Positions 9,155-61,995 of a stretch of 64,000 nt of DNA are shown one piece after another. The stretch is from Astropecten irregularis (Eukaryota; Echinodermata; Asteroidea; Paxillosida; Astropectinidae): NCBI GenBank assembly GCA_963971285.1, contig OZ020263.1, positions 124,001 to 188,000 of the forward strand, read 5' to 3'. Position 1 is the stretch's first letter. Each line of letters begins with the position of its first letter. Under the pieces are notes generated by a model. It saw nothing but the letters and a program-made list of their open reading frames with translations. It was not told the DNA's origin and ran no database searches. A program made the position numbers and the translations under genes.

Positions 9155-12100
9155 GTAATCATTCTCAGCAGTTTAGTTTTAGTTTCATTCAAACATATTT
9201 TTTGTTTAAACAAATCTTCTTTAACTTTATAGTGGTTGGACCTGACTGGTTCTGAACACTTCTTGAATAGATGTTTGCATCGTAAAAAGCGTTTATTAAC
9301 ATTTCCTTTGAAGGCTCAAATTTTTATCAATTTTCAAGTGATGTTTTCGTGACCTAATATATACCAGGCCATCTCTGTTTCTAAAAACAAATGGATACTC
9401 GATACCAATGATGGATTAAGTTGGACTGAATCTTGCATTTTCTTGGTAAAACAATTAATTAGTTCGTGAGTTTGTGCGAAAGATTGAAAGACAAAGACAT
9501 CATTTTTTTCGAACTTTTCTTCAGATTTTGATTCAAAGCAATGAACTTTACATCTTCGTGTATATAGACAGATTACTAGTGCATCTGTTCGAGTGCTGGT
9601 GGACAGTAGACATAGAGTGAATGCTATCAAAATGATATCATGTTTCTCCTAAAAAAAGTAACAGATCAATTGTTTTTCCTGGTTTTTATGAATATGAATG
9701 ATTGCGTCACGGTCTTTGATACATTGGTCACATTCCCCCCATTTGTATTGTTGCAGGACTACGCTGTGTCATCGGCCAGGAGCGTGACCCCACATCCCCC
9801 GGCAAGTACCGCTGGGTTATCCCGGTTGAGGACCCCTGTCAATGCACGAAGGTTCGACTGGGCGGGTTGAACAAAGCGACACCCAAACGAGATTTCAACG
9901 TGACCTACTATGACACACCTTTCAGAAGCAGCGATCCAATCGAGATTCGACAATTGCTTAATTGTTCAGGTGAGTAATACATAATTATGTAAAAACATTA
10001 TGCATTTTGTAGTATCATACTTTGGTAAGAAACTAAAACAGAAATGTTCACAGATTTACGTATAACTTACAGGGTATGAAGATGGTGGCGGTAGAAACAT
10101 ATACCGTTACATTTTTTCCGCCTGAAATGGTGTATTTATCCAGCAATTAGTCAAACAATGACCGAAAATCTGTTTGATCTTCTAAAAGATCACAAATAAA
10201 AGAGAAAAGGCATAAGAAATACTGTGCAGGTTTCACTGTTTTCTCAAAAAATGGGCTTCGTATGGGACTGAAATATTCACATATGACGGTTACCGTATCT
10301 GTCTTGATATTTTTGCCCATGAATCTGTATTTATTTGATAAAAACCAAAGTATGATATTACCTTTTAAGGCACACTATGTGAATTGAAGGTCAATGGGTG
10401 TTTAGCATCGGCGTATCAAACCATCTCAAAGGTTACATCTTGTTGACTTTTCCAAACCTCAAGAGTTTGTTCCGTTTAATCTTATTTTGGATCAAACATT
10501 CTAACCAGTAACCAGTTACCATCCATTTTGAGGTGTCATGTCACAACAATGTATCGGTGAATATTACACATACATGTATTAGCTTGGTCACCTCTTATTA
10601 TTACGTAAAGGCATCTCAGTGTGAATATTTTACTGAAATCACATGTAAATGACAATTCAACAAGATCACAAAATATACATTCCGGGGAGCAGTGATCAAT
10701 GCTGGAGATATCGACGCCAGCCCGGCGTGCAAGACCTTTACCATAACAGCCTTGGCCTCGACGCCTTCCATATCCGATCTGAATACCTGAAGCAGGCTCT
10801 AAGCCGACTAATTTGTCCATAATAATCACCAACAATTGAATGGTTTTTTGTGCTACAATTAATTTAACCTTGCCGTACCGAACTAAGCTACTATCGTGTT
10901 GTCAGTTACGTACGCCATAATACACATTTGTATGCAGAATTTACACAGAATGTGCGGACTGGTATTTACGTTACAGTAGCAGTTACAGTTACAATAAGTT
11001 GGCTGAAGCAGTAGCACAGAAAAGAGACAAATACAAAATTAAATTTGAAACAATTTAAATGTATTATCCTTTTTGTTAATCACGTGGTATATATGATGAG
11101 TCCATCAATCCTGACACTGTACGTGTTAAAACACGTCATATGCAAATCACTCTCAAGTTATTTAATGACATTTCGAGATCTGGCCGATATGAATTCCCAG
11201 ATACGTTGGACTAAATCATCAAAAATTGCAATTTGTCTTCTAACTGGGAAATATCCGGTAATTTTTAAACAAAACCACTCATGTACATCGCCTTGATCCT
11301 TGCATTTTTATCTCAAGATTTGTACATTGTCAGTTGGCTTCGTCAGAGGCGGTTAAATGGGAGGAGCTGGGGGACTTTGCAAAGTGGGTCAAGTAGCTCT
11401 TCATACTTCAACTTAAAGGCTCCCAGTGGATACAGAGGACACCACTATGTCCTAAATGCAATAGACGGATTAAAAAATATCAAACCAAAACTTGATCTTG
11501 ATTTACACATTAACATTAACCCACTAGTATGTGACGACCCTGACAATGTCAAAGTGTGATTTGCGTGTCCATCATTATATTTTTGTCATCGATATTTTGC
11601 TCGGTATGCATGTCATGTGCATGGCTTTGACAAACAGCTATAGCTGTATGTTCTTGATTTTGGGATATCACACAATTCTCCCAGTAATATGTCTGAACAA
11701 TTTTTTTTTTTAATTAAAGTAATAGGTTGATGAATTCATCTACTTAAGGTAGTATCATACTTTGGTAAGAAACCAAAACAGAAATGTTCACAGATATACG
11801 TGTAACGTACAGGGTATGAAGATGGTGGTGGTCGAAACATATACCGTTAAAATTGTTCCGCCTGAAATGGTGTATTTATCCAGAAATTAGTAAAACAACG
11901 ACCGAAAATCTTTTAAAAAGATCAGAAATAAAAGAGAAAAGACAAGAAATACTGTGGCTGTTTTTCACTGTTTTCTCAAAAGGTGGGCCCCGTATGAGAC
12001 TGAATTTTTCACAGATGTCTGTTAATGTATCTGTCTTGATATTTTTGATAATAAATTCGTATTTCTTTCATAAGAAAACAAAGTATGATATTACATTTTT

Positions 12101-15100
12101 AATGACAAACCATGGCCCCGCTCTATATTTGAATCCGTTTTGGTTTGTTTTGTTCCCTACGCCATATACTGTGCATATTTCTCCTCATATAATACCCATC
12201 ACTATCTGACTTCTCTTCATTTGAGTTCAATTCTTCTTGATTATACCCTATTTAAAAGATCAAAAAGATTTTCGGTCGTTGGTTGACTAATTTCTGGATA
12301 AATACACCATTTCAGGCAGAACAATTTTAACGGTATGTGTCGACCACCACCATCTTCATACCCTGTACGTTACACGTATCCTGTGAACATTTCTGTTTTG
12401 GTTTCTTACCAAATTATGATACGACGTGTACCAATTGACGGATGATGGTTTTTCCTGTCGTTACAGTCGTTTTTGTTACCTGTAGAGCAGGCCCGACACG
12501 TACACCTTCACGCGTATTTTAATTAATTATCCGCTAGCTACACTCCGGAAGCGAGCCACGCGGCGAGTTGGGTTCGTTTCACGTTCAAGTTGCGATAATG
12601 ATCTGCATTTTTTGGCATAGCAGCTCCATATACGACCATACAAGGTCACATGAATATTTCTACATTACCCTACCAGTTTTTTACATGAATTTACGCCACT
12701 GTTGCTGACGTTAGGCTTATTGTATGTGAGACGTGAATTCTTTTTTCGATTTTTTTTGTTAGATGATCATGATTTTGTTTACATTTTTACTTTGGAGATT
12801 CCTGATTTGTTTTTGTTTTTATTAGTTTGTTTTGTTCTTTTGTGGGAAGTTGTTTCTTTGTTTCTTTCCTTGTTTAAGTTTGTTGCCTTTAATCAATTCA
12901 ACAGGTTGATTCCAACCATAAACGAGGGTTTTTCGGAAGTGAAACAATTAATGTCCAGAGTTTATCAATCTCGTAGGATGAAAATTATTCAGAGTAAATT
13001 TACATTCCATAAACGACTTATATCATCAGCATCATGAGAACATAAAAATTATCAGTGATGGACAACACTGAGAATGCTCGATATTATAATGTGAGGGCTG
13101 GTATGCTAGACACGTAGCGGCAACAACTGCAATTAACTGATGTGCAATTTCATGCTGAGTGTCTCACAAAAAGATGACAATAAAGAATTTCATTGTCATA
13201 ATGTATTTTCCTTCTGTATAATTATAATTATAAACACTGAACAAGCAATGGCGCACCCGGGGGGGGGGGGGGGCTCAGGGGGCTTGAATCCTGGGTGCGC
13301 CGGTGTGAACAAGTGCTAAACTTGCCTCAAAACAGATACATGTTCCTCGCTCTCATTATTTATGCACAAAACTGACGTCAAGTTGGCTAGGCTGAAATTT
13401 AAAAAAGAAAATCTATATAGTTTATAACGCCTCGATTTGAACCGAGACCATCAATAAATTGATGAAGGTTATAACGTTGCGGTGAATATTGTACGCCGCA
13501 CCGGTTGTATCCTCTATTGTTGAAACTGCCACAATTTCCGCTCGCCCGACGTGCCTCATCAGTTGGGTTTCTTTGGCATTGTACTGAGCAATGGAACTCC
13601 TGGAATATCAAATGCTGAGGTGCATACGTCTTTTTCTGGTGACCGTTTCCACTAATTTGCTCACTGACCTGAAACCTCGATGGTTTGCTGTTTTTACATT
13701 TTTATATACACTGCACATGTATAGACCCCTGATAAGAATAATTATTACACATATCTGGTAGTTATGCGTCCTTGTTTATTTTTTCACGCCCACTCAGAAT
13801 AATAACAATCAAATTTTTAGAAAAATAATAATAATGGTCCCCTTTTCTTTCACACACACACAAAAAAAAGAAGAAAGGAAAAGGTAGAAAGAATGAAAAA
13901 CAATATAAAGGGTGGGAAAAGACTCAAAAAAAGAAGAAAAAAGTAGGGAGAGACAAAATTAGCTAGCTTTGATCGGCCCGAAATGCATCCTTCGCTATTC
14001 AGTGAATTAGGGGCGCATTTTATTTCCACGACCCCCCTTGGAAAATCCTGGATCCGCTCCTGTTTCCAAAGGTTTCTTAAAAAGTGGGCACCGTATGGGA
14101 CTGGAAATGTCTCAGATGACTGTTACTTTATTTTTCTTGATATTTTTGCCCATGAATCTGTATTTCTTTGGCAAAAACCAAAGTATAGGCCTACTTATAT
14201 ATAATAAATAATAATCATCTGTCAGATATTGTCGCTCAATGCGATTTACATTAAAAACTGTAGGCCTACAAACTTTAAAATAAAACAAAATATTTAATCA
14301 TAGGGCCTATCTGAGTTTAAGAAAAAAATCCAATAGATAATGCCTTGGTTTTACCCAAAAATTTCAGAAACCAAAGCCCTGCCCTCTTTCCAGAAAATGG
14401 ACGGAAAGAGTTATGTTCAATCCATCCATATTGCATCCAGTGTAGACTGTTTAAAATGACTGCCTAGTTGTGCCCAACAGAGGGCGTATTTAGATTTAGA
14501 AACAAAATGGCTGCCACCATATTCGAATATTTTTCATTGCCTACTGCAGTTCCTACCGTAGTTTTATCAGGGAGGAATGTGCTTTTAAACTTGTTCCTCT
14601 AAGGTTTTGCACAGCTGAGATTGAAGTTCATCATGGCTTAAATCCAGTAAGTTAACTCCTAAAAGATATAACTTTTTTCCATAATATCCGTCATTGAAAT
14701 TCTTCACACTGTTTTGTTTTCTCTAACGTTACAATGATACAGGCGCCTTTACTACAGGGAGTAGGCCTAGCTATAGCCTGATGAGGCTGAGTAGGGGGTC
14801 TAACTAACCATAGAGTAAGGTCTCTTCCATCATAATAAAAAAGGGAGTTCAGCGCCCCAGTTTCTGGGTCTACCTCCCAGCCATGACAACATCCAATGAG
14901 CCCGATTCTTTCACAGGCAATTTGGCTCCACCCACAGAACAAAAGGGAATATAATTATTGCCAGCACAACATAATGTCATCTCATTTCTTGCAGGGTATG
15001 CAACCTTCATTGTGTGGGAGAAGTAATGATTTTCGATGGTCACAGGTCCATAGTCAAAACTCAGAAGCTTGACACTCCAGTGCTCCCCAGTGGCGTCACC

Positions 15101-21100: not shown

Positions 21101-24100
21101 TCTTTTAGAATCCATAAAATCAGTTAATTATAATATTATGGATGGGTATGTCACCTTGTGTAACCAACAATGACATACTAATAAGTGTGCTAAGAGATTC
21201 CAATTACATATTACAACTTTCTTTGTCCCTGTCCTTTTGTTGTCTTGGGCTCGGTATGCCATTCTAATCGTAATTTTTGTAGAACTTGCATGAAAACAAA
21301 TCAATCAAAGGGTTTCATCGGGTAGAAAAATATCATATAGTTGATTAATCTGTTTTTTTTGTTAATTACCCAGATCCTTGTACGTCAAATCCGTGCTCTA
21401 GTGGCAGCAGCTGTGTCACAAATAATAAGGGTACTAGATACTCATGCAATTGTCCAGATGGATTAATTGGATCTGACTGTTCAAAATATGGTAAGTACAA
21501 TGGGGATGCTCCTATGTGTAATTTTCTTATACTTATAATTAGTGTTTAAGCTATAATTTATCTGTTAACCTTGTGCACGGGGAAGAGGGCATGGGGAATA
21601 AACATACGGTAAATAAATATTCAATCTGATTGGAGTTAGGACAGACTGATGTTTCGATAGCAGGATCTTTCTCAAAGGCTAAGATTATTCTCAAAGGGGG
21701 GATCATTCGATGAACACAATAAAGATACTGCTAGGATCAAACGTCAGGCCCTCCTAATTCCAAGCATTTTTTTATGTTTCATGTCATTATTTATTTTGGC
21801 TGATGAGCAGTTTGCAGCAATTTATTACTTGTATTAATTATTCAACCTGTTCAAAAATTTAATCATGAAGTTCAAATATGAAAACAATTTGATATTCAAC
21901 CAGTTAATTATTTTGAGCTTGTTCAATATTTCACTATGAGCAGTTCTTCCAACCAGGTCTAATTATTACTCAACCACTTGAAATATTTAACCAATTACAA
22001 TTGGAGAGACTACCCAGGACCCCAAATGCAGCCATGATAGCTGCGGCTACCCCACTATGTCTGTCCACATTGAGTGAATACAGTCAGAAGGGAAAAAAGT
22101 CAGTATGACTCTCTGTGTTTCTAACAGACCTTGTATAAATTATGCCAGAAGTTCAGTCATTTGACAATTTCAGTATGATGTGTAATTTCAGACCCATGCT
22201 CGGGAACTCCAAATCACTGCCTTAACGGAGGCACCTGTTCAGCTACGGTTCAAGGTTCAGGTGTGGTGCTTAGCTGTGAATGCCTAAGTGGCTTTTATGG
22301 TGATATATGTGAGATACCCGGTGAGTAGACCCCAATATTCTACTATCTGCCTCTCTGCCATACTGTACTTGCTAGACCGTGAATGGATATCAACTCTATG
22401 AATGATTCTGATTTACCATAATACCATCATTCGATGTGAGATACCTGGTGAGTAGACCCCAACATTCTACTATCTGCCCCTCTGCCATACTGTACTTGCT
22501 CGACCGTGAATTGATATCAACCCTATGAATGATTCTGATTTACCATAATACCATCATTCGATGTGAGATACCTGGTGAGTAGACCCCAACATTCTACTAT
22601 CTGCCTCTCTGCCATACTGTACTTGCTAGACCGTGAATTGATATCAACTCTATGAATGATTCTGATTTACCATAATACCATCATTCGATGTGAGATGCCC
22701 GGTGAGTAGACCCCAACATTCTACTATCTGCCTCTCTGCCATACTGTACTTGCTAGACCGTGAATTGATATCAACCCTATGAATGATTCTGATTTACCAT
22801 AATACCATCATTCGATGTGAGATGCCCGGTGAGTAGACCCCAACATTCTACTATCTGCCTCTCTGCCATACTGTACTTGCTAGACCGTGAATTGATATCA
22901 ACCCTATGAATGATTCTGATTTGCCATAATACCATCGTTATGTGGGAATACAAGCTTCCTTCTGTAATGACTTTCTTTTTCATGTGTAGGTAAATACCGG
23001 TATACCAGCTTCCTTCAGTGATGATGCCGTGCTTTATAAATGACCTTGACTCAGGTTTTCAGATAAATCCCCTTTATGTTTGTCCATGATTCTTCAATAC
23101 TATGATATGGTGATTTTTCATTATGATGAATAGTATATAGTATGCAAACCATAATTGAATAAAAAATAAGGCTATTCCAATTATATATTATTGCTATTCT
23201 CATTGATAGATACAACCATAAATCCTTGCACCGACTATAGCACCCACATTAAACTGTCACAGATGTGAAATACTCGTGACTGTTCAATGTTGGTCTTAAT
23301 GCTGGTCTAACATGTGGAGGGGCTTTCACAAAAATGACACCAAAACCTGATGATTCCCAAATTACTATTTAAGTTATACGCAATGATTACTGCCCTGCAT
23401 GTTATTGAATGTTTGTGACATTATCAGCTGTTGTGAGGGCTTAGCCTGGAATATAGATTCCACAATTTATTCAGGACTGACGTATCACAATCTGTGAAGG
23501 ACTATGAGTGTAAGGTTCAAAGATTTTAAATTTGTATGAAAATAGTTGTGTTTCAATTACACTAAAAATGAAAATGTCTGGTCGAATAAAGGAGTATTTG
23601 CAGATAACTTTTATTCTTGTTTGTTCTTTTTGCTTTCAGATCCTTGTGAGCCAAATCCATGTCGGAATGGTGGGGCCTGTGAAACAAGAAAAACTGCATC
23701 AGGCGTGGAGTATGACTGTGAATGTGCAAGTCATTACTTTGGTACCAACTGCGGAGTCAATGGTGAGTATATTTATCTTACCAATATGAAAATTATCAAA
23801 CAGCCTAGACTATATCAGTCTTTACAATACAAAGATAACTGCCATGCGTTATAGGCCTGTTGTATGGTGTTTTTCCCCGAACAGTGAGGAAACAAAAGCA
23901 GAAAAAATCATTAGAATTGTCATCAATTAATTTTCTGTCATTAATATTTATTACAATGAAAAGCGTGAATATATAATAGAAAAGTTTTTCTTTTTTGCTT
24001 TGAGAAATATTTTGTGTATTTAATTTGTATGAAAGTAAGGCATTCTGCGTTTACACTTGAGTGGAGAAAATCCTCAAAGCATGTAGAATATACCATTTCC

Positions 24101-31609: not shown

Positions 31610-33589
31610 CACCAAATTTGATGATTTGGAACACTTTGGAAAAAGTCAGTTTTCGGCCAAAATTGACAAAAACGGCAAGGGGTACCCCTTGTCGTTTTTT
31701 CAATTTTTGATGAAAAATCAAATGCTCTGAAATAGATTCAGTTATCCTCGCAGATGAGAAATATACCAGTTTTCGTACGAGAAATGGGTTCCTTGTGATC
31801 TGAGACACCTATTAGGATGATTTTGAACACTTTTGGAAAAAGTCCGATTTCGGGGCAAAAGTGGCAAAAACGACAAGGGGTACCCCTTGCGGTTTTTTCA
31901 ATTTTGGATGAAAAATCAAATGTTCTGAAATAGATTCAGTTATCCTCGCAGATGAGAAATATACCAGTTTTCCTACTAGAAATGGGTTCCTTGTGATCTG
32001 AGACACCTATTAGGATGATTTTGAACACTTTTGGAAAAAGTCCGATTTCGGGGCAAAAGTGGCAAAAACGACAAGGGGTACCCCTTGCCGTTTTTTCAAT
32101 TTTGGATGAAAAATCAAATGTTCTGAAATAGATTCAGTTATCCTCGCAGATGAGAAATATACCAGTTTTCCTACTAGAAATGGGTTCCTTGTGATCTGAG
32201 ACACCTATTAGGATGATTTTGAACACTTTTGGAAAAAGTCCGATTTCGGGGCAAAAGTGGCAAAAACGACAAGGGGTACCCCTTGCCGTTTTTTCAATTT
32301 TGGATGAAAAATCAAATGTTCTGAAATAGATTCAGTTATCCTCGCAGATGAGAAATATACCAGTTTTCCTACTAGAAATGGGTTCCTTGTGATCTGAGAC
32401 ACCTATTAGGATGATTTTGAACACTTTTGGAAAAAGTCAGATTTCGAGGCAAAAATGGCAAAAACGACAAGGGGTACCCCTTGCCGTTTTTTCAATTTTT
32501 GATGAAAAATCAAATGTTCTGAAATAGATTCAGTTATCCTCGCAGATGAGAAATATACCAGTTTTCGTACGAGAAATGGGTTCCTTGTGATCTGAGACAC
32601 CTATAAGAATGATTTTGAACACTTTTGGAAAAAGTCCGATTTCGGGGCAAAAGTGGCAAAAACGACAAGGGGTACCCCTTGCGGTTTTTTCAATTTTGGA
32701 TGAAAAATCAAATGTTCTGAAATAGATTCAGTTATCCTCGCAGATGAGAAATATACCAGTTTTCCTACTAGAAATGGGTTCCTTGTGATCTGAGACACCT
32801 ATTAGGATGATTTTGAACACTTTTGGAAAAAGTCTGATTTCGGGGCAAAAGTGGCAAAAACGACAAGGGGTACCCCTTGCCGTTTTTTCAATTTTGGATG
32901 AAAAATCAAATGTTCTGAAATAGATTCAGTTATCCTCGCAGATGAGAAATATACCAGTTTTCCTACTAGAAATGGGTTCCTTGTGATCTGAGACACCTAT
33001 TAGGATGATTTTGAACACTTTTGGAAAAAGTCCGATTTCGGGGCAAAAGTGGCAAAAACGACAAGGGGTACCCCTTGCCGTTTTTTCAATTTTGGATGAA
33101 AAATCAAATGTTCTGAAAAAGATTCAGTTATCCTCGCAGATGAGAAATATACCAGTTTTCCTACTAGAAATGGGTTCCTTGTGATCTGAGACACCTATTA
33201 GGATGATTTTGAACACTTTTGGAAAAAGTCCGATTTCGGGGCAAAAATGGCAAAAACGACAAGGGGTACCCCTTGCCGTTTTTTCAATTTTTGATGAAAA
33301 ATCAAATGTTCTGAAATAGATTCAGTTATCCTCGCAGATGAAAAATATACCAGTTTTCCTACTAGAAATGGGTTCCTTGTGATCTGAGACACCTATTAGG
33401 ATGATTTTGAACACTTTTGGAAAAAGTCCGATTTTGAGGCAAAAATGGCAAAAACGACAAGGGGTACCCCTTGCCGTTTTTTCAATTTTTGATGAAAAAT
33501 CAAACGTCCTGAAATTGATTTTATTCTCCTCACAGATGTGAAATACACCTGTTTTCGTACTAGAAGTGGGTTTTTTGTGCTATTCTAAG
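31610..33589. repeat. 198-bp satellite array, 10 units
   Basis: Units start at 31610, 31808, 32006, 32204, 32402, 32600, 32798, 32996, 33194 and 33392. The inner eight are nearly identical and the two edge units diverge. Each holds AAGGGGTACCCCTT within a 32-base near-palindrome (one mismatch). Because 198 is a multiple of 3, one minus-strand frame is open for 64 codons in each unit, but it begins with GTG and ends at tandem TAA TAG. I read it as non-coding satellite. Confidence 0.95.
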
Positions 33590-33990: not shown

Positions 33991-33999
33991 GATCCTGGG

Positions 34000-34044
34000 T
34001 TGGGGTTAGGGTTAGGGTTGGGATTTGGGTTAGGGTTAGGGTTA
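34000..34044 (+). repeat. interstitial telomere-like (GGTTAG)n tract
   Basis: About 45 bases of GGTTAGGGTTAGGGTTGGGA type repeats with two imperfect units, matching the TTAGGG telomere repeat used by most animals. It is embedded between the two satellite blocks. Confidence 0.85.
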
Positions 34045-34377: not shown

Positions 34378-34557
34378 AAGCCTGTGTGTATGAAGCTTGT
34401 GTGTGATTGATGGTAGCTATACGTATGAAGCTTGCAGTGTGTGATTGATGATAGATATACGTATGAAGCCTGTTTGTGATTGATGATAGATATACGTATG
34501 AAGCTTGTACGTGATTGATGGTAGATATACGTATGAAGCTTGTGTGTGATTGATGTA
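34378..34557. repeat. minisatellite, ~36-bp units, about 5 copies
   Basis: The unit contains ATATACGTATGAAGCTTG followed by TGTGATTGATGGTAG. The copies vary by short indels. The array ends exactly where the diverged satellite resumes (CCCTTGCCGTTTTTTC). Confidence 0.85.
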
Positions 34558-35400
34558 GCCCTTGCCGTTTTTTCAATTTTGGATGAAAATTCAAATGTTC
34601 TGAAATGGATTCAATTCAGCTCGCTGATGAGAAATAGACCTGTTTTTAAACTAAGAATGCTCCAAGACACCTATTAGGATGATTCAGATCACATTGGGAA
34701 AAAGTCAATTTGGGGGCAAAATTGGCAAAAACGACAAGGGGTACCCCTTGCCGTTTTTTCAATTTTGGATGTAAAATCAAATGTTCTGAAATGCATTCAA
34801 TCCTGCTCGCTGATGAGAAATTGACCTGTTTTTAAACTAACAATGCTCCAAAAGCCCTATTAGGATGATTCCGATCACTTTAGGAAAAAGTCAATTTTGG
34901 GGCAAAAATTGCAAAAACGACAAGGGGTACCCCTTGCCATTTTTTCAATTTTGGACGAAAAATCAAATGTTCTGAAATGGATTCAATTCTCCCCGCAGAT
35001 GAGAAATAGACCTGTTTTTAAACTAAGAATGCTCCAAGACCGCTATTAGGATGATTCAGGCCACTTTAGGAAAAAGTCAATAAATTTTCCGGGCAAAAAT
35101 TGCAAAAACGACAAGGGGTACCCCTTGCCATTTTTTCAACTGAATTTTGGCCAAAAATCAAATGTTCCCAAATAGATCCAATTACCCTCTCTGATAAGAA
35201 ATAGTCCCATTTTATGCTGGAAATGGCCTCTTTGTACTGCTAGCCACCAAATTTGATGATTTGGAACACTTTGGAAAAAAAAAGTCAATTTTGGCCCAAA
35301 AATGACGAAATCGACAAGGGTCCCTTGCCATTTTTTCAATGTTGGACTAAAAATCAAATATTCTGAAATGAATTCAATTACCTTCTCTGGTGAATCCGTT
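34557..35400. repeat. diverged relative of the 198-bp satellite
   Basis: Four or five units about 186-199 bp long, marked by CTATTAGGATGATTC at about 34671, 34857 and 35043. Most keep the GGGGTACCCCTTGCC core. They are visibly more divergent than the 31610 array and look like an older block. Confidence 0.85.
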
Positions 35401-37725: not shown

Positions 37726-40700
37726 GTAGGTTATGATAATGTATTATGTTCATGTACAGTGAATGGACATCATAAGTTCAATGCGCTGTGTGTGATTGTA
37801 ACTGGTATATTTTCCTGCTGCGGTAGACAATACTTGGAAGCAGAGAGCCTTCCAATGCCTTTACGGTGACGAACCAAGCAACCTAACACTGTGTGACCCG
37901 ATAGGCCCTATACACAGTTCACTCTGAAGGCTGAAACAATACAAGACTTGGCTGTTACTTCTTACTAGGCCTAACTAGTCTTATGTCAAGCAATGTGATT
38001 GATGTGGTTATGCATTTAACTCGAACAAATGTGGCAATTATAAAATTTCGAGTGTAATAACTCAAGTAGGCTTACACTAAAGTTTAGCTCGTAGTTTTGA
38101 TGAGAATGGACTCTTGGATAGAATACTTGGCAACCCTTTTAAGGAAAAACAAGTAATTTGAGGTAGTTCGCTGTTCTGTTTGCAACGCAAGTAATTATAC
38201 TAATTATAATTTATATGGATGGATTTCTATTCTTATTTATACTGGACTGTGCAACCCCAATCGTGAGGGAGAAGTAACATTCTCCGTGACAGTGTCAAGG
38301 AGACTATGATAACTAGCCTACATTACCAATAGTTGTCACTTTGGTTTTAAGGACAATTTATGAAATAAAACACTAATCTCTGTAATTCTTTAAACGATTC
38401 TGTGATGAAAGATAAATTCAATCACCTCATTGCAATTCGAAGATATTTCTTTTATTTTAAAATCAGTAAATCATGTAATGTGGTTTTGAAACTGAAATTT
38501 GTTCTGGTAGCAACTCAAATTATTATGATATTCTTAACGGATGTGTATATGTCATATCAGAGGAAAATGTTTGGTGCATTGTAGTGATGAACATACCACG
38601 GATACAGCCTACACAATAAAGGAAGTGTGTGTGGGGGGCATGGGGGGGTCTTCCATACCAGCAGCCAGTGTTGACATCATAACTACGTCAGCTAGTTACA
38701 AGTAACTACGTCATGACATATTTCAGTCATATGTGAGATTTTCCGTTTTACATTCTGTGAAATCAATGTGAAGGTTGTCTAAGTAATTCGTTTTCAAGTT
38801 TTTGGATTTATTTTCCCTTCAGATTTTAGGAGAAGTGTTAATTAGGAAATAACTACATAAAGGATAAGGTTTTAATAATTTCGTTTATTCCTGCATTGAG
38901 ATTAATGGAAGTATGTAAATTGTAATCAGAACCTCATCTATATTGGTTCCTATCGCATCATTTCCTTGCTTTGGTTTTTCAATTCCGTCACCCTATGTGG
39001 CCATTATACTCCCGGTCATTCACCTTTGCGCCATCTCTTTGTAAGTCACTGCGCAATATTCTTCAACTTTTTCCGAACGTCCGTCCCCAAAAGGCATATA
39101 GTTATTTTAATCGGTTTTGGCCTATAGCTTCATTGCAGAGTGTAAAAGCTATACCGCTATAAATTATTGCGAATGATTCATACTCATATTATTTATGTGG
39201 CTGTTTTCACAGTTCCCACCATGTGATAATCCAAAACTGAAAAACGGAAAAGGATAATATTGACGGAAACAGCTTGGATCCCAGCCCAGGCGGGTTTATG
39301 CCATTAAATGGTTAATAAGAGAAGACATGTTGTTCCGTCTTTGAGATTGACATCATTTTACACAGGTCATATTCCGTACGTGTGCTGTATCCATTTAACT
39401 TATGAAGAAGTTTTACCTCCTACCATTTACTTAGCATGGGTCAAATTAGGGCCAAGTTTGTTCGTAGACTGACCTGACCTCTTGTTGTCATGGTTACTGC
39501 TATTGAAATTAAAGAGGTATCGACCTTGTCTGTTATCATTGGGCAGAAACTCAGTTATAAATATGTTGAATATACTTCAAAAGTTATAAGCCTTACAATC
39601 AGGTCTCACCCATATAACATTGACAGATGGACAACGATTTGAGATGAACTCTCAATATTGACAATAATTTAGAACTGTTAGAAAACGGATGCTATTCCAT
39701 TCCTATTTATTTTCCTCATAGCATTCCGGTACTGCAATTACAAAATCGGTTTCTCATAAATCCTCAAAACCGTTTGGTCCTGAAACCGTTTTAAACAAAT
39801 CTCTCTTCTGTCCGGTAGCACAACTCTAATAGTTGCGGTGAGATTAATCTTAGTTTAAGATAATTATTGTGTAATGTGAAAATAAATGTTTTTTTGCTGT
39901 TTTTCAGGTGTATGCGGCCAGTATTCCCGAAAACGTGCCACTAAGTGAGAAACATCGTGAGTGTATCTCTATATCCAGTTTTGAACCAATTTGACGGTAT
40001 TAATTTGTGAGTACGTATATACTTGAGACATCACAAAGACTCAGAATTTCTAATGAACTTGCATGCCTTTCCTTATCACAGATCACCTGATATCCAAACT
40101 GTCACACTATGAATTAGTGAGACCGTACAGATCAACATCTGATGGCGACTTTTACACACATGACCTCTCCACAATCAAAGAAGAGGAGAGAAATGTGTAT
40201 TTACGAGCCAAAAGAGACACACATCAAAATGGCCGCTCACGACACACCCGTAGCACATCACATCGGATAAGAGGAGGTGATCACCATGACGACCTCCAAT
40301 TAAATCATCACTTCCGGGTTGATGCCTTTGGCACGCATCTGAAGCTCAATGTTACAAGAAATCGATTCTTAGTCAGTCCAAAGATGAGGGTTGAACGATA
40401 TAATGAAGATGGAACCAAAGATATATACAGACCTCAGACCTTGTGTTTCTATACTGGACAAGTCAATGGTGTCAAGAAGTCATCTGTAGCCATAAGCAAC
40501 TGTGATGGATTGGTAAGTCACACACTTTGCCTACTTTCAATTTAAGGGATATCTGTCCCTCATAAGAACACATTCACGTGACGTATCATGATTATTATAA
40601 CCGTTTTCCCTTGTTTTCTGGAAAGGGAAATGTTTTCAATGTTCACAGTTTAGTTTATGATATAATGATGATTAAAATGACTTTTTTCTTTCATCAATGC

Positions 40701-43700
40701 CACGACCAATGATTTGGTGCTAAGTACACCGAAAACCTGTCCTCTCAAAATAAAAACAGGCCCCTCTCATGCCGGGAACAACAAAATTAACAGAACATAA
40801 AGAAAACGGACAATAAAACAATAGTGTAAAATAAATAGTGTAATATGCTATTTTGATTTAGTGATTACACAGACTGTGGTTTGGAATTGTAGAAACGTCC
40901 GGCTCCAAATCCTCCATTATGACAATAATTATGACCGATCGGAAAGGGTTCGGTCAATAACTGTGGGTTCTGGGAATGAACCGATAGCATTATTCACTCC
41001 CATCGCTCTCATCACTCACATCGCGTTTCCATTTTTACTACGTTTACGTCATTTTAAAAGATCTCAAAATTGTTTGTCATGATGTACTCTTTTGACTGGC
41101 ACTATTTACACAAATGGCTTTTTCCAAAGAAATGTCTTAATGAGAAGAGGCTATTGTTTCCATTCCTAATTTTTTCTTTGAAAAGTGTGAACATTCCAAG
41201 ATTCCCAATATTGTTCCAATTTACATCGTCTATTGCACCGAAACCACAGTGAGAAGTGTTCTTAAAATGATACAGTATACCCATAGAGCTTGTTGTACCT
41301 TTATCGAATGACGTGGTACACAAAATGAAGGCCAGACTTGAAATACGTTATTGTCTTGGGAAACTGACGAACACATTCAAAGAATGAAACTATCAATGGG
41401 GATGACTAATTCCTTAGCTTCTATAAGTTATGATAAGATATATCTCCTCCCTTAACAGGAAATACAATGTATCCAGGTCCCGTAACCACTTAGAAATAAT
41501 TGACAGATCAGATTGAGTTAAAGATGAAGGATCGAAACTTGGATATATGTGGGGGTTCGGGATGTGAGTGAAGTTGACCAAATCATAAAATGTTTGTAAA
41601 TAATAACTGTGCTACTCCCAATGTAGTGTTTTAGTTGTCTCCAGTATTAAAGTCTTGTGGTCTACCTCATGGTAGGATGTTTGCAATTTGGACGCCAGTC
41701 AAAAATCTGAGCTACTTGGAATATGAATTTCAGTTCTATGTTTATTCCAGTCTATCTGCCGTGTGAGAAAATGCGTTTGCCCGTGTAAAATCAGTTGTAC
41801 AATGCAAGATGTGTTACGCAAAATAATACTAAGCAATGGAAGGTTAACTGGGTATTGCCTTTAGGCCTATGGAAGTTACTGACGACCTATACTTTTAACT
41901 TGGAAGAATTGTAAAAACTTTGCCTTCGCGCCCTATGGCAACTTGCAGCATGTTGCCAAGGTACGGTAGACAATCGGGGTCACTGATCGAACTACAAAAG
42001 AAACATAATGTTTACTTTACTTTCTTTCGTTTTTATAGTAGCCCCACTCATACAAATTGAGAATGTAGCTCAATACTCTCTCGACAATTGTCAACAATTA
42101 TTGATTAGCTTAGTAACTTCAGAGATTTTACTACTTCCAAGAAATAGTATCTAATTTACCGCGTTGGTATATTTAACGCTTAACCATGTTCAAAAGACGT
42201 CCGCAGTGTTAAGGATCTCACTTTCATTTGCTTGGTGTAGCAGTGCGTTAACAGTAATCAGATTAAAGCGTTGGAATTTAGTTCTGTATAGAAGGCTGTA
42301 CACAAAACATTTCCTCTTGCTTTGAATTTAATTGAAAATCGATGAGGTATAAAACATGTAATAGAGAAGAGGGCAGCGAACTTTGCAGGATCCCAGACCC
42401 CAAGTGACTCTTACGACATCTCTGCATTGGGCGAAAAGTGACACTAATATTCTTATACTCTACCCTAAAACTTTATGGTCGAACCAGCGGCAGCCTTCGT
42501 AATGTTTGTTTGTGCTCAGAGTTGGTTGACTTTCCGATCCTATAACAGGACCTATTCCAAGATATCCCTTATAGTATAGGCTCTTTTTTTTCAACCTTTG
42601 AGGTTAAGGAGATCCTGTAAGAATCAAACGCCAGGTCCCCTAATTCTAAGCATTGTTCTTAGTATAGGTTACAATTTGTATTGATGTGTATGCCTACATG
42701 TAGTTTTCTTGATTTATTTGTCTCCCAGGTTTCCCGATCAATGTGACGTACCTGATTTATGGTGATTTATGATGGTTATTTAAGTTACACTGACGCACAC
42801 TCAGCAATAAAAACCTGTTAAGATTGCACGCGTACTTTTCTCAGAAATATCAAATTATTTAAAAAAAAAAAAGAAGAAAGACCTGAGCTATATAGGTGGG
42901 AAATCCTGTTGACATCAGATATTCTGTGAATTATTGTCTTTGGCAACTTCGAAAAAATAGAAGAAATTAAACAACGAAATTCTACTTGTGCTTTATATTA
43001 TAAGAAAACTTAGTGTTCGGTTTTGAAGATGGTTGAAAAGGCAATCTTGGCAACTTGAAATTATTGAAGACACGTTGCTTGAGTTTATACACTACTTTAA
43101 TTTTAGACAAATTTAATTTGAATTGCATAGAAGGAAAGAATGGATTTCATTCGATAACTTGGCCGAAAGAAAAAAATGTAGAGTTAATGAAAACAGAAAG
43201 ACAACAATTAATCAAATTAATATCCGATCCAGCCTGTCAATCAGCCATGTCCATCATGAAATCCATTATGAACACCTGTTATTCATGTTTACATTATCTT
43301 TCAAATAACCAAAACTGTGTATTTTATTCTCATTCTTCAGAGTGGTTTCATCCAATCAGGTGACGAGGAATATGTTATTGAGCCATTAGAGTCTGTAGTT
43401 GGCAGGTCAAAGGTCAATGTATCCAGAGGACATCTTCACATCATGTATAGACCCAAGGACTTTAAGATGGAAGCTAACGACCTTCAAACTGCTTGTAAGA
43501 CTTTGAATCAACCTCATCATACATAATTTCTTGATGAAATGAAAACACATTATTCCTCAAACACACACCTCAATAACTTAATACATAATTCATTATAGTA
43601 ACTGGATGGCCGTTTGTCATTTCATATAGGTTATATAGTCAGCAATTGCAGATAACAAGTCATTTTGAGCATCAGTTATTAACTCTTCACCGGATTTTTC

Positions 43701-46700
43701 TAGAAGTAGAATCTCACAAATTGGAAAAAGAGGAGCCTCCTAATTGCAACAGTAGGCATATTCATTATTGAGTTTAAACATCACCAATGTCGCACCAAAA
43801 CATGACATCCAAATGTGCTCTGGTTTGCACTTTTATCCTTAGTTTCAATGACGCACGACCTTCGCCATGACACACCAGAGGAAGATACCCCAAACCAAGG
43901 ACAAGAATCAGACAATGGAGACAGGCAGAGTGAACATGGACGCAAGATTCGTAGCGCTGGAGATCCTGGTCAGAAACATCATGTTGAGACACTCCTAACG
44001 GCTGATTATTCTGTTACCAGTTTCCATGGTGTTGATGCAACGGACAAATATCTGCTTACCATGTTGAATATTGTAAGTTCAGGAATTATGTCTCTTTCTA
44101 ATGTTTTTGCCCTTGCAGTGGATTATATTTGACTGACGATTTATCACATTCCTTCTGAGTATTGGGAGGCCAAGTACCCGTATTATAGGACATTCCTACT
44201 AACTCCCACGTTGCCATGAGACATTTCTAAGTGGACTTATCACCCCTTCACAATAATGGCCTATTCACAGTATAAATTTGAGCACCAGTTACACCTAAAT
44301 AAGAAACTTTATAGGTATTTGAAGATCATGGGAACAAAATGTACAGGCAATTGATGAGGCAATTATATAAAACTTCATAGACTATTTCACTTTGAGTAAT
44401 CTGTTCCAGCTGTGTAGCAGCTGATTCCCACAGGATGCTTTCCTTATGAATACAATCCTCATTTCAAGTATCACTTTTCCATGCAATAGCCTCATATCTC
44501 TCAATAAGAATCAAGGATAGAAATCATGTATTAAATGTCGTGGTACAGAACCAGATATACATCTTTCCTATGGGCAAATAACAGCAATTTGTGAATCTAG
44601 CTTTACATAGGTCGACCATGGTAGGTGGCCGAGTCATATTTTTTATCTTTGTAACAATGTATGGACTTCTTGGGTTTCTTTTATACGTTCCCCTGATCAC
44701 AGTTAATATTTCTTGCAGGTAAATATGGCATACCGGCATGATTCCATGACAGCTGATATTCAGTTCGCAGCTTCAAGAATTATTCTCCTTTCTGAAGCTT
44801 TGGTATGTATTAACTCTTTTCATTTGTTTGTTAATGTTATCTTAAGTATTTGTCTGTCTGTGTTCAAAATTTCTGTCTTCTTTCTTTGTTGTATTCAGTC
44901 AGGAAATATGGTTGTGGAGCGTCAAGCCCAGGCAAGTTTGTCCAATGTCTGCCAGTGGTCTACGCGACAAACAGTACGAGATGACACACAGGCAAATCAC
45001 CATGACTTATCTGCATTTGTTACCAGGCTTGACTTTGGACCAGCAGGTGAAATACAATACACGTTTCTTGATCTTGTTGAAGATTTTGTAATATATGGAT
45101 GGCAATGGCAAATCATATCAATATTACCATAACTGCCAGGTTTCTGTGTGTTTCCAATGCATGGGAGACTTTGGAGAACCGGTTTTTTAGTCAACAGCGC
45201 ACGCGCACGCACGCGTAAAACAACCGCGCATGCTCACATTTGCGTGCGCGCGCGCTGTTGACTTGAAAACCAGTTCTCCAAAGTCTCTCATTGAACACTT
45301 TACATTCTTAGTTCCCTTCCATTAACTCTTGTACTGATGCTTGATTTGTATTTTCTTTCAGGTTATGCCCCAGTGACAGGAATGTGTGCAATGACAAGGA
45401 GCTGTGCTCTAAGCAGAGACGAAGGACTGTTATCATCATTTGTAATGGCGCACGAAGCAGGACATGTGTTAGTTTGGTTTTTCTTTTCATTTTATTATCA
45501 ATTTTCAGGGAATAGTTCCAACATTGGTGGAGTAAGTTGCAAAGGGTAGTTGTTTGTTTAGTTTACATCCCTTGTCTCTCCCACAGTTTGACAAATCTTT
45601 CAACTATGAGGTCACCTTGTTGCATTTCTGTTTATTTCTCTGTATACAAACCTTTCGATGGATGAAAGGGTTCCCTGTGCAGTTTAACCCGACATAACCT
45701 TACACCGAGAACAGCATGGTACAAGGAAGTTCACAATAAAGTTACAGAGTGTCATAACATCGTCTTTAAGATACTGTGTTATAAGTTCAAAGGTTAAGCT
45801 GGAGAATTATCCTATTTCTTTGAATTGATTTTAATTTCTGTCTGTTCTACTCCTATAGCTTTGGTATGGAGCATGATGGTGCAGGAAATTCTTGTACTGA
45901 AGAACCTTATCGAGGTTCCATCATGGCACCCGTGGTTATTTCAACATACACTAATCATTTCTGGTCGGACTGTAGTATTCAAGAACTCCAGCGCTATCTC
46001 AGGTAAGCGGTTTCGTATTTTGTTTGGTTGTCCCCTTTTTTAAACTGCTTGTGGGGAACAATTTGAATTCAGAGACACTTTTCTCTAGAATTTTTTTTTA
46101 AGAAACAATTATATTTTTAATAAATTTGAAGAATGATGGGATAAAATGACTTCAATTTGTTTTCTGATACAGAAACTATGATTGTTTGGAGGATGACCCA
46201 TTTGATAATGGTCTTCCTGAGCTTGATGGATACCCTGGGGAATGGTATGACATGAATGACCAGTGTAAATTTGACTTCGGTGAGGATTTTGAGCAATGTG
46301 GAGCGGTAAGTAAAACATTTTATAAATTTCTTGAAAACAATTAAGGAGAAAAAAATGATGTTTAACATGAATTGCTGCCGTGCGTACAACTCCTATATAC
46401 CTGGCCAGGTTACAGAGTGGCCACACAATGATCCATGTAATTTGTTTGGTTATGTCAGCCACATCGTAATGTTATTGAACTATACTATGTTATTGACGTC
46501 ATCATTCATTTCCTTTCCAATGTTTTTAGAGCGAAAACAGATGTTAAATATCATTGTCACAATGTGATATGCAATATTATTTGGTTGCGCTGTAGAGTTT
46601 TCTCTAGCCATTCTCTGGAATGGTCGGGCAAGTCCTGATTAGTGACACTGATTTATTATTTGACCATGATTGATGTAAGTAACATAACCTTGCTTGGTGC

Positions 46701-49700
46701 TTGGAGTCTTGGGGTAAAGCTTGCTTTCCAGGAATGCTATCGCTTCGAATGCGGATAATATTATTTGAACACGAAAACTCGCCCCTCTTTATTCAAGTCA
46801 GTGAATAGAATGTTGGCATTTCTGCTTTGGATCAAATGTCGTTAATGAGAGTTTTTGCAGTTTTTATTACACTTTCTTGTACTGTTTGTGGTTTGCCTGC
46901 GTCTGCAATTATAAGACATGTTGAGACCGACCATTGTGCCAACTGTGTATAATATAGGGATTGAGCAATGGAGCCTATAAAGTATCAAATTTATGGTTCT
47001 GCTTTTGAGAGTGTCCGGTTGAAATATGCCATATGGATTGTATTTGTCGTATCCCATGAGGTAGATATAATGGCACCGCCTCAGCTATAATTTTTTCAGA
47101 TATATTATTCCTTTCTCTCAAGTTAAACTGACGTGAACCGTGGCGGTAGCTGCCTCCATGCGTGAACCTAGCTCCTTGTGTTTCCCAAGGGAGTCTTTGG
47201 TCATTGATTCCACTTTTCAGTCTGTCAATCTTTGCCCTATAACAATAAATCAATCAATCAGAAGGGCTTGGAACGACTGAAAAACCGTCGAAGTGATCGT
47301 AGGCCTACTCGGTTGGGGCCTGGTTATGTGTCATTGTAAAGTTATCTCTGATGTTCCTCTTCATGATTTTCCAAGAAGTTTCAGCATGATAATTCCAGCA
47401 TGCCGCTTAGCCCACAAAGCATCTGCGCCTTGGGTTTGGTCCTGTCATCATCGTACTAGAGGGAGTTTGTAAGCTCAAACTAAACAAACAATCCCACATA
47501 GGCAAAGGTTTTGGTTTTGGGTTTGACTGAGTTCAGTGTGAATGATACTGGCTAATTATTATAAGAGACTGTTGTGCCAGCTGCATCAGTTCTGTGACCA
47601 CAGACTACAGTGCTAGGAAGCTACATTAATGTCATGTTGTGGGTTCGTAAACTCTGACCTAGGCCGTTTTCCAAACCTCGGCTCCGGCTCCGGCTCAGGC
47701 TCCGGCGCTGTCATCCATATGCTGAAAATGTAGGTTGTGGCTTTTCATTGAAGCTGAATCTCTGTTTTCTTGTTCACAATAGAGTATCTACTTCCAATCC
47801 GTAACCAAAAGCCTCTATTTTGATACCTGTTATTCAAAAATGGAGTCACGAAATGGAGCCGAAGCTGGAGCCTGAGCCGGAGCCGAGGTTTGGAAAAGGC
47901 CCCTAGTTTCTCATTACTGCCATCCCATCATTACTGCACCTCTTCTCCATCAGCTAGACATTAATGTGCACATGCGACTATCATACCGTATTCATCCAAG
48001 TTTTCTTTATTTGTTTACGTATTCATGTGTTTAATTTTTGCATTTGATCACAAATTGGCTAGCATATCAAGGGCCGATCATTTTGTCATGTGTGATTAAA
48101 GGATCAATGTCAAGCAGTACTATTATACAAAATGATGCTTCTATGCCAAATTTGCCGTTCGAAAACTTCGATATGTCCAACCAGCATTCCCACACTTCAT
48201 ATTTCCAATCCCAGATGTTTAACCGATGATCCTTCAAACCTGTAGCAACTTTAATATTATATCGGTGGTAGGTTATGTAAATAGGAGGAATTATGAGGGG
48301 TGTATGCGACCATGAGTGGTACCCCTGATGTCTAGAACGTCCCTAGGTGGTACCAGTGACCTCATAGGGCACACCAGAAAACCATGCAGCTATTGTGCGG
48401 AAAGTTTATTGATACTGCTCTATAATGGGAAAAGTCATGATGTAAAACCGAGAGGTTATTCTCACTGGAACGAACCAGAAAGTGGAATAATAACTATTAC
48501 AGAAAAGGTGATAATCGTCGAGTTCCTTCTCATTTGAAGGTTTTACCATTTCACTGTATTCATATGATTCATACTCTAAACATATGAAGTAAATATACCG
48601 ATTTCACTAATTTCAGTGCTTAACTATACATGTATATATTATCTAAGACACTGTCTATAGCGTTGTACTCCATTTTGTACCAATGATGAAACAGCACATG
48701 AAACAAACAAAAATTAAAACCAAAAGATGAAACAAAAACTAAGACGGGATCTTTGCTAAAATTGGACTTGGCGGCATGCAGATTCCCGCAATACAAACGC
48801 AACAATATCTTCTCCAGGAGATTATACAACCATGGATTGTACAACCTTCCTCCATGGTACAACTGAACTAACTTTTGATCTTTCTGCAATGCTTTCTGTT
48901 TGTGATTTGTTTGAGTTTTAATACCGATGTCAGCAGGGGTGTAGTCTGTGATTATTAATACACACTGTGTAGGTGGGTCATGACGGGTCAATATTCCCGT
49001 TTTGCGGTTTTTGGCTGCATATTGAACCAATGGACATAATTATATACATGTATAGCATTTTCTCAGATTGTGTAATTTGCATGCTCTTAGTAACAATGTA
49101 TGATGCTCTCTGAACGTTTTCTATCTAAAAAGTGTAAAAAGCGCAATATGAATGATGAATATTATTAAGTTACCATGTTTTCATATAGAGTTTGCTGTTA
49201 TTGTCACAAATGATGACAATATGACTTTAGAGATTGATGTTATGGTGTCATGATGCTTGTAAGCAGCTGCGTGTATTGCTTCACTAATTAAATCACTGCA
49301 CTGTGTCTCCTGAATTCCGGCCCAACAATCTTTAGATCAGCCAAGTTAAAGAGATGTCTAGAATCGATAGTTTCAATTAAAAATCATTTTCTCCGTAGAA
49401 GAAAAATATAATAGTTCAAATAGGAATGGTTCCCGACTCTGAATTTGTAAATGGATGAAAAACAAACGAATTTAAGTTTTCTTCCAACACCAACTTTAGA
49501 AATAGAAATCAATCAAACTGTTAACCAATCGAGTTAAAAATCGTGAAAATTCTTTTCATCTTGAATTTAATCAAATCAGTTATCTGAAAATGCACCTCAT
49601 ACTGCGTAATTCCTCAAACGAATTAAAGAATAACACAGTTTGAGAATTGGTACTATCTAGAATTGAGGCTGGAAAAGCAATGCAGTAGTTTATAGCTCCA

Positions 49701-52700: not shown

Positions 52701-55700
52701 AAAACATATATCCAGAGTTTTTTCATGACATATTTTAGTAATGTTTGTTATGATAATTTGTAGAGCTCAACATCCAACCCAAAGGATAATTTGAAAGACT
52801 CATTTTTCATTGTTCGTCCCTGAGCTATTGTACTTTTGTAGCTGTTTGGAGTTGTTGACATATCGTGTTGTGCATAGTATGTCGTGTTCTTGTGTTTCAT
52901 GATCAGATCCACCACCAAATTTGCCCTTCAAGAATAATACCAGAAATGTTTGACTTCTGGAAGACTTAATCATAAACATGCATTGGGAGGAAGTGTCTGA
53001 TGTTCTTTCTTCATACACAATGTACCTTTCTTTGTTGTGTCAACTTAATGTCTTATAAACTGGATTTCATTCTTTTGCATTAATGGCGCTTATAAGAGGC
53101 ATAATATGTCAGAATATTTTCGAGGGTGTAATGGAGGCGTACTTCGACACCGAGATGGCACTATCTATCCCATTTTCTCTTGCTGAGATGTGCTCCTGTT
53201 CCGTGTTGAATTGTCTCAATCCAGTTCTAAGATTTCCAGTTCAGTTCTGACTTGGGCTTTTATGTAGCCAATATAATTCCGTGGAAAGTGTCAACAGAAT
53301 GTGTCCATACTCCATATTGTATTTTAATCACTCCCGTAACAAATCCATTATGTCAGAATAGTTGGAAAGCATGATACAGTATTTATAATTTTTTCTTTTC
53401 TTTTCTTGAAATATGCAGCCTGAAGATGACAATGCTTGCTCTCAGTTGTGGTGCATCGACCCATGGGATCCTCAGTACTGCAGAACAAAGAAAGGACCCC
53501 CTCTAGATGGTTCATACTGTGCTCCAGATAAGGTAGGTCCAGATAGCTAGACAACCATAGACGGACAGACAGACTTAGTACTGCAGGACAAAGAAAGTAC
53601 CCCCTCTAGATGGTTCATACTGTGGTCCAGTTAAGATAGGTCCAGATAGCTAGACAGCCTGATGGACAGACAGACTCAGTACTGCAGGACAAAGAAATGA
53701 CCCCACTTGATAGGTCACAAAGTGGTCAAGATAATTCAAATCCAACCAAACACCTAGAATGACAGACCAACTGATGAAGAAGATTCCTCCACTATATGAC
53801 CATCAATGTATTTAATCTTCTTATTTCTGTAGTGGTGTCTTCAAGGCGTTTGTGGTTACAAGGATGTTGGTAGACAGAATGGAGAATGGAGCAAGTTTTC
53901 ATCATGGAGTTCTTGTACTTATCCTTGTGGTGTTGGCGTTCAGGTCAGGAAGAGAGAATGTAACAACCCACCGTAAGTCTATTGTCTTATCCAGTGTCTT
54001 TATCTAAGGCATGCTTGTTTCATGTCATTGGGCTACAAGCTTCCCACAAAAGAAGCTGCCATGACAGGTGCACTAGGATGATCCACCTGTTACATCACTG
54101 ATTAAGACCAGAACTGAAACCAGCAGGTCTTTTGAGATAATTGTTATGTATTTATTTTTGCTAATCATTGGGAACAAAAAAACTTGACCAAGCCGCAATA
54201 TTCCCAATGCGAACTAGTAAATCAGTTATATCATCAAAGAGCATTAGTGTCTCTTGAAGTTATCTTTGTCTTTTTAGTGTATTATTTTGTTTAATTGTTT
54301 TCTGTAGGCCAACTAATGGTGGCAAAGACTGCAAAGGAGATTCATACGAGTACCGTCTGTGCAATAAGAAGGTAAAGATTTACAATTGGGTGTATTCCAG
54401 AAGTTACATTCCCTATAAGCAAGAAGCATTATTTGATTTTTCTTTTCACTTTTCAAAGTAGCCTTGTAAGGCTCAATGAATCAGTATCCCTAATGATCCC
54501 AACATTAGTGTTGCCCCTGATGTCCATAATTTATGTATGATTATAATTTGATCTGTGATTTTATGTTGAAAGGCATGTTTTGGTGAATATGAGGACAGAC
54601 GTGCTAAGCAGTGTGAAGACAACTTAGCCAGTTTCTCTATGAGAGGAAATACACATACATGGTTGCCACATGAAAATCGCAATGGTAAGCTTTTCATTGA
54701 TTTTGAACCCCCGTTCCAACCAAATATGGCTACCTCTGTTCCCCTGGAGGGGGGGGGGGGTACCCCTGGAGGAGAGATACCCTTGGAGGAGGGGAGGGAA
54801 GGGATTCACTAGATTCATCCAGTCACTACCTCCAAAATGTACAATGGAAAATCCTGAGGAATTTCTGAGGGGAAATTCTTTAATACAGCTTTGCCTGACC
54901 ATTCATAATTTTAAGATGTTTGATCTGCTGGAAAACCATTATAGCATTAAAACATGATTCATTGCTTACAGAGTCATGTATACATAGATCCTGTGACAGA
55001 TCTTTTGACATGTATGTACCCACTTTTCATGATCCATGAGAAATTGATCACAATCTCTCATCTGTGCGACAACAAAGAGGACTACTAACAGTTCCCTCTA
55101 CACATCTTGCAGGTTCACAACAATATGCTTTGTTTTGGTTGCCATAGAAACCTTGCAGTGCAGACTGACCTGCATCTCTGAAAGCACTCATGACGTCGTA
55201 GTGGCTGATTACAATGTTATTGATGGTACTCCATGTTCCTATGACGACCATTACAGCGTCTGTGTACAGGGTAATTGTGTGGTAGGTATTGTCATCACAT
55301 GACATTGCATTAGATGATAATTAACTCGTTGCCAAATGTGCAACATAATGTGTTTTCATTCATCAAAGGCTGATGCCCATTGTGCAGGTGTTGAGACACA
55401 GTCACAAATCATACCCATCCCAGTGGAATGACCCATATCTGCCATATTATGCAAAAACATCATGAGAGGAATATAAAAATGAATTTTGAGAACGATTTTA
55501 ATAAAATGGAGCATTTAAATCAGTCTATTAGAAACCAGTCATGTATTCTCAGAGGATCACTTAATATACAAAAATTAGTTTATAGAGTTTACAATTACGC
55601 TGAAGGACAAGCCTAATTTGCATATTTATATCCAATATAAATATTCTTGATAATAAAGACAAATGATTGAATATCAATGTATTTCTATCTGTTTGAACAC

Positions 55701-61562: not shown

Positions 61563-61735
61563 ACTAAGCACACAAAAATGTCTGGCTCAATCAAACAAAC
61601 CACCATTACAAAGTCCATTTGATATTCATGGTCAGCGAAAAAAGCCAAAGAACAATCACAAGTAGGCCTAATAATATACACAACGCGTGGAAATTTGGTT
61701 GTTAATCCTGTTTTTATTTCATGATTGAATGATTT
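61563..61735 (+). repeat. truncated copy of the 61759 MITE interior
   Basis: Colinear with 61797-61955: AAGCACACAAAAATGTCTGG, CATGGTCAGCGAA, CCAAAGAACAATCACAAGT, GGAAATTTGGTTGTTAA. It lacks complete terminal inverted repeats. Confidence 0.75.
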
Positions 61736-61758: not shown

Positions 61759-61995
61759 GGCCAATTTCATAAAACTGTTAAGCACAAAAATTTGCTTAGC
61801 ACAAAAATGTCTCTCCCAATAAAACAAATCACCATTGAAAATTCCATTTCGTATTCATGGTCAGCGAACAACAGCCAAAGAACAATCACAAGTGATACAC
61901 AAAACGTGGAAATTTGGTTGTTAACCCGGTTTTTATTAAGACATAAATGTCATGCTTAGCAAATTTTTGTGCTTAACAGTTTTATGAAATTGGCC
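61759..61995. mobile_element. MITE with 42-bp perfect terminal inverted repeats
   Basis: The left end GGCCAATTTCATAAAACTGT continues through AAGCACAAAAATTTGCTTAG and is inverted without mismatch at the right end (61954-61995). 237 bp, no coding capacity. It lies about 260 bp before the gene 3 start codon. Confidence 0.85.

Follow-up and report, generated by a model that had tools for sequence, protein, structure and literature searches.

A mirage-type tandem array repeats an exon end and its splice donor five times in an EGF-repeat gene

Tandem repeats lying across exon-intron boundaries, termed mirages, were described in the Adh3 and globin genes of lancelets (PMC3087553). In BflGb6, the units are 150-160 bp long and number 6 and 3 on two haplotypes, while in BflGb9 a unit of 157 bp duplicates the 3' boundary of exon 2 (PMC3087553). 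Imperfect repeats of 60 and 108 bp in PGBD5 were likened to mirages in a later account, which also cites troponin C (PMC3902484). Normal splicing is reported in the two accounts to be undisturbed by mirages (PMC3087553, PMC3902484). In human IFI6 (also G1P3 or 6-16), two downstream repeat units of a minisatellite serve as splice donors (PMC4526556), and internal tandem repeats at the exon-intron boundaries of segmental-duplication genes are described as able to change splicing (PMC2812944). The cases of boundary repeats that we met in the open-licence literature were those of lancelet and human. The IFI6 unit is approximately 12 bp long and in frame, so that the downstream donors make viable isoforms. 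In intron gain by tandem genomic duplication, a duplicated exonic AGGT becomes both ends of the new intron.

We analyzed a window of 64 kb (the whole stretch of DNA under study; GC 34-44% in 2-kb steps), and all positions below are those of the window. In its own register, the array found in an EGF-repeat gene consists of five ungapped 127-bp units placed head to tail at 22307-22941 and approximately 97% alike (Table 1), the number of five being read from one assembly. Tandem Repeats Finder returned 22307-22936 with a period of 127, 5.0 copies, 97% matches, 0% indels and a score of 1183. Five copies at an exact spacing of 127 bp had been claimed in a first-pass annotation of the same DNA, and the unit starts bear this out. 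A 31-base unit probe matched the window 5 times at up to 3 mismatches, as compared with a mean of 0.00 in 100 dinucleotide shuffles. The repeat starts with the last 14 bases (22307-22320) of the EGF exon at 22192-22320, and the first unit runs from there across the donor, so that the array spans the exon-intron boundary. Each unit was said to open with these 14 bases followed by GTGAGT; the donor motif is indeed intact in 5/5 units, but the 14 bases are exact in copy 1 only, with one C>T each in copies 2 and 3 and one A>G each in copies 4 and 5.

Table 1. Positions of the array units, the surrounding exons and intron, and the second boundary duplication in the window (a slash marks a splice junction)
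Feature	Position	Strand	Remarks
EGF-domain coding exon	22192..22320	+	129 nt, both ends in phase 1; acceptor TTTCAG/AC, donor CCG/GTGAGT
Intron holding the rest of the array	22321..23639	+	1319 nt
Unit 1	22307..22433	+	true exon end and authentic donor 22320/22321
Unit 2	22434..22560	+	donor copy 22447/22448; acceptor-like TAG lost (CTCG)
Unit 3	22561..22687	+	donor copy 22574/22575
Unit 4	22688..22814	+	donor copy 22701/22702; restores frame but with stops
Unit 5	22815..22941	+	donor copy 22828/22829; right edge differs from internal junctions at 3/5 last bases
Following EGF exon	23640..23762	+	acceptor TTTCAG/AT, donor ATG/GTGAGT
Second exon-end/donor duplication	53471..53734	+	103-bp unit, 2.3 copies by Tandem Repeats Finder

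The host gene has 13 EGF-like exons located between 16.3 and 25.7 kb, among which the array-bearing exon, numbered 10 in the first-pass annotation, is the eighth. The array-bearing and following exons, when joined, matched the EGF family in Pfam (PF00008, E 3.8e-09; the queried peptide carried two extra glycines). Pfam was applied to these 2 of the 13 exons, and the rest were named EGF-like from their cysteine pattern by eye.

Judged by its anatomy, the array is of the mirage kind, bearing two of the features that define it, namely units lying across a boundary and copies of the splice signal. As in the lancelet mirages, many of which carry copies of splice signals, tandem units lie across a boundary, and as in BflGb9 the 3' boundary of an exon is duplicated (PMC3087553). 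On the other hand, it is the acceptor side that is copied in BflGb6 and the donor side here, and the units of lancelet Adh3 measure 10-72 bp as opposed to 127 bp (PMC3087553). The present array further differs from the lancelet mirages in belonging to an EGF-repeat gene. The GC content of the window is also lower than that of lancelets, so that its host may be another animal. It shares with IFI6 a minisatellite at an exon end that supplies additional donors (PMC4526556). The repeats of the human segmental-duplication genes differ in that their units average 30 bp and reportedly gave rise to novel introns (PMC2812944). Splice signals are copied via tandem duplication both here and in intron gain by tandem genomic duplication, although an existing donor is copied in the present case and a new intron is not evident. 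In contrast to the in-frame unit of IFI6, the unit here is 127 bp long and brings an early stop.

The donors of the array were scored with a matrix built from the other 12 donors of the gene. Donors 1-5 scored 11.18, 11.60, 11.60, 11.18 and 11.18, all within the range of the 12 reference donors (8.7-13.1), with donors 2 and 3 slightly above donor 1; no other GT in the array exon and its intron reached the lowest reference score. The earlier description of five near-identical 5' splice sites in a row is therefore accurate, and the sequence gives no reason for the first donor to win because all five score alike. We rejected RNA structure as a means of hiding the later donors, as predicted accessibility gave donor 1 no consistent advantage. 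With 80-nt flanks, the mean predicted unpaired probabilities of donors 1-5 were 0.34, 0.34, 0.33, 0.40 and 0.40 (mean over 60 random places, 0.48); they were similar with 150-nt flanks, and 0.34, 0.19, 0.29, 0.40 and 0.40 with 40-nt flanks. When donors of equal strength are duplicated, it is often the intron-proximal copy that is used, which, like the downstream donors used in IFI6, speaks against the first donor being the main one here. Reporters in which elements between donors suppress the intron-proximal donor have been described, by which the default preference is not settled (PMC1877881).

By computation, use of donors 2-5 would add 127, 254, 381 and 508 nt to the exon, and 4/4 of the resulting translations contain stops, each running directly after the exon into Gly-Glu-stop at an in-frame TAG, just as the first-pass annotation had read. 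Its statement that only the first donor gives the EGF frame stands insofar as donor 1 is the sole donor with an open frame. It needs amending for donor 4, whose 381-nt insert restores the frame, albeit only beyond several stops. Donors 2-5 would thus give no in-frame productive isoforms of the IFI6 type.

Altogether, the array is quite likely a mirage-type minisatellite, which arose by tandem duplication at the boundary and was then amplified, with the first donor used for the most part and the slips destroyed by NMD. All four internal junctions read CATTCG/ATGTGAG (slash, unit junction), and because they are alike we infer that a single founding duplication was subsequently amplified. On its right, the array is flanked by CATCGTT-ATGTGGGAATAC, which has ATGTG in common with the unit start and is without the CG of the junctions; this similarity is a plausible site of the founding event. 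The founding step would have duplicated approximately 125-127 bp once, from the 14 exon bases to the ATGTG-like intron repeat, at a short similarity. Unequal exchange or slippage would then have raised the number of units to five, a number that probably differs from one haplotype to another. Over 122 columns (the ragged last 5 being left out), any two copies differ at 1-6 positions (ten pairs, mean 3.1%). Copies 4 and 5 differ at 1/122, copy 2 has two private changes, and copies 1 and 5 have private or edge changes, a mixed picture as regards the homogenised interior and less affected edges of a mirage. The expansion is probably recent, as had been suggested, the mean divergence counting as recent only relative to the diversity of the species. 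By analogy with the published cases, the first donor would mainly be spliced, by which the 129-nt exon and its context are kept and the other copies are removed with the intron. Mis-splicing at the array is possible, and transcripts from donors 2-5, with their early TAG, would on paper be NMD substrates. Such loss would be small and probably tolerated, and a positive function would not be needed.

The first-pass annotation had gone further, proposing that the array buffers the donor, sequesters U1, or controls dose through NMD. A rival reading along these lines is regulated unproductive splicing, in which the donor array would set the frequency with which intron-proximal donors are used and copy number would tune the dose through NMD. 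The five equal donors and the TAG lying in frame two residues past donor 1 fit such a scheme, and the downstream repeat donors used in IFI6 provide a precedent (PMC4526556). Nevertheless, we consider it unlikely. The donor copies gave no sign of selection: 0/8 variable columns fall inside the six donor bases (chance P = 0.66) and 2/8 inside the 14 exon-derived bases (P = 0.23), with little power, and room for weak selection to escape, because there are just five copies with eight variable sites. The early stop comes from GTGAGTAG, which is not special to the array because the EGF-like exon ending at 19699 has it too. The 12-bp units of IFI6 keep the frame, whereas 127 bp breaks it. Donor scores and predicted accessibility likewise single out no donor for a role, a copied donor has decayed in the second boundary duplication of the window (see below), and lancelet boundary arrays are reported to leave splicing undisturbed (PMC3087553, PMC3902484). 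Buffering, U1 sequestration and dose control are left without support in this analysis.

Misjoining of haplotypes or of a shorter array into five units by the assembler has known parallels in lancelets, in which the repeat number of PGBD5 differs between two assemblies (PMC3902484) and a globin array came out wrongly assembled in a draft (PMC3087553). An artefact of this sort is improbable here. Mere reiteration of a single copy would not account for the substitutions private to copies 1, 2 and 5 or for the one common to copies 4 and 5, and the spacing is exactly 127 throughout.

Acceptor-like sites (TTGCTAG) with tracts of 68% pyrimidine occur in 4/5 units, and 3 of these have a donor copy downstream; the pyrimidine content falls within the 53-84% measured for 8 true acceptors. 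Three more sites of similar quality are found in the same intron outside the array, with first exonic bases at 22990, 23019 and 23210, and the acceptor-like sites are therefore not special to the array. The birth of an exon or intron, in which such a site (first exonic bases 22376, 22630 or 22757) and the donor of the next unit would bound a 72-nt cryptic exon, has these sites and the intron-gain model proposed for mirages (PMC3087553) in its favour but is extremely improbable, given the in-frame TGA that a phased reading by hand shows in this 72-nt stretch, the loss of the AG in unit 2 and the comparable sites outside the array. We also rejected a recursive splice site at 22990, approximately 50 bp beyond the array, where a pyrimidine tract and TAG/GTAAAT (TTTCTTTTTCATGTGTAG/GTAAAT) fit the loose recursive-site pattern. 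The pattern occurs once on the + strand of the window and not on the - strand, and 100 first-order Markov sequences average 0.97 per 64-kb strand. A search of the window for known RNAs gave 0 Rfam matches at gathering scores.

The window holds a second duplication of an exon end and its donor, in the candidate single ADAMTS-like gene at 40057-59060. Of 10 reading frames scanned in this region, 5 scored above a curated Pfam cut-off, one each for the reprolysin propeptide, reprolysin and the ADAMTS cysteine-rich family and two for TSP1; another frame, at 55048, matched the cysteine-rich family below the cut-off. The host exon of the duplication, at 53419-53532, is the ADAMTS cysteine-rich one (PF17771, E 2.5e-07), and the 103-bp unit begins within it and crosses the donor AAG/GTAGGT. 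Copy 2 matches copy 1 at 93/101 aligned bases, and copy 3 matches copy 2 at 73/93. In copy 2, which reads AAGATAGGT, the donor is ATAGGT instead of GTAGGT. This looks like an older event of which the spare donor has decayed.

Among four long-period arrays in the window, 2 lie over a donor. When arrays were placed at random 20,000 times, at least two donor overlaps arose with P = 0.085, and the overlap with any boundary gave P = 0.104 (mean 0.58). The enrichment of arrays at boundaries was therefore rejected, the placement not being beyond chance. The test used 14 donors and 12 acceptors from the EGF-like exons and one ADAMTS exon only; the list lacks the acceptors of two EGF-like exons, three acceptors were set by eye and may be a few bases off, and a fuller list would raise the chance overlap. 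Self-BLAST at the 26 listed boundaries (plus strand, E at most 1e-4, at least 30 bases, less than 3 kb apart, most satellite and low-complexity rows set aside) found no further boundary duplication besides the two. A local duplication of 28 bases, guessed to lie next to the array, was discarded, as 4/28 bases match ungapped at an offset that may be wrong.

Taken alone, the array adds one further example to the structures already described as mirages. Two boundary duplications in 64 kb, one with its donors intact and one decayed, hint that such events may be common in this genome, with a count that is not beyond chance; if they are, gene prediction and splice annotation in this genome need care. 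Equal donors at a fixed step of 127 bp in one intron amount to a natural experiment on donor choice. It is rather doubtful, albeit conceivable, that arrays across boundaries recur in this genome, outside lancelets, and that the spliceosome reliably takes the donor farthest upstream among the five equal ones. If both were true, the arrays would allow exon definition to be weighed against intron-proximal preference in a natural setting.

Other repeats were observed in the window. Two satellite arrays with similar unit sequences lie at 31620-33579 (198-bp unit, 9.9 copies) and 34555-35204 (186-bp unit, 3.4 copies), and an interstitial GGGTTA repeat, telomere-like and of the TTAGGG type, at 33997-34044. 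A direct repeat of 149 bp (61571-61718 and 61800-61937) is 81% alike. Another of 361 bp (10009-10366 and 11749-12099) is 85% alike and recurs in part at 14073-14186 and, as a similar translation, near 19.4 kb, which suggests a dispersed element.
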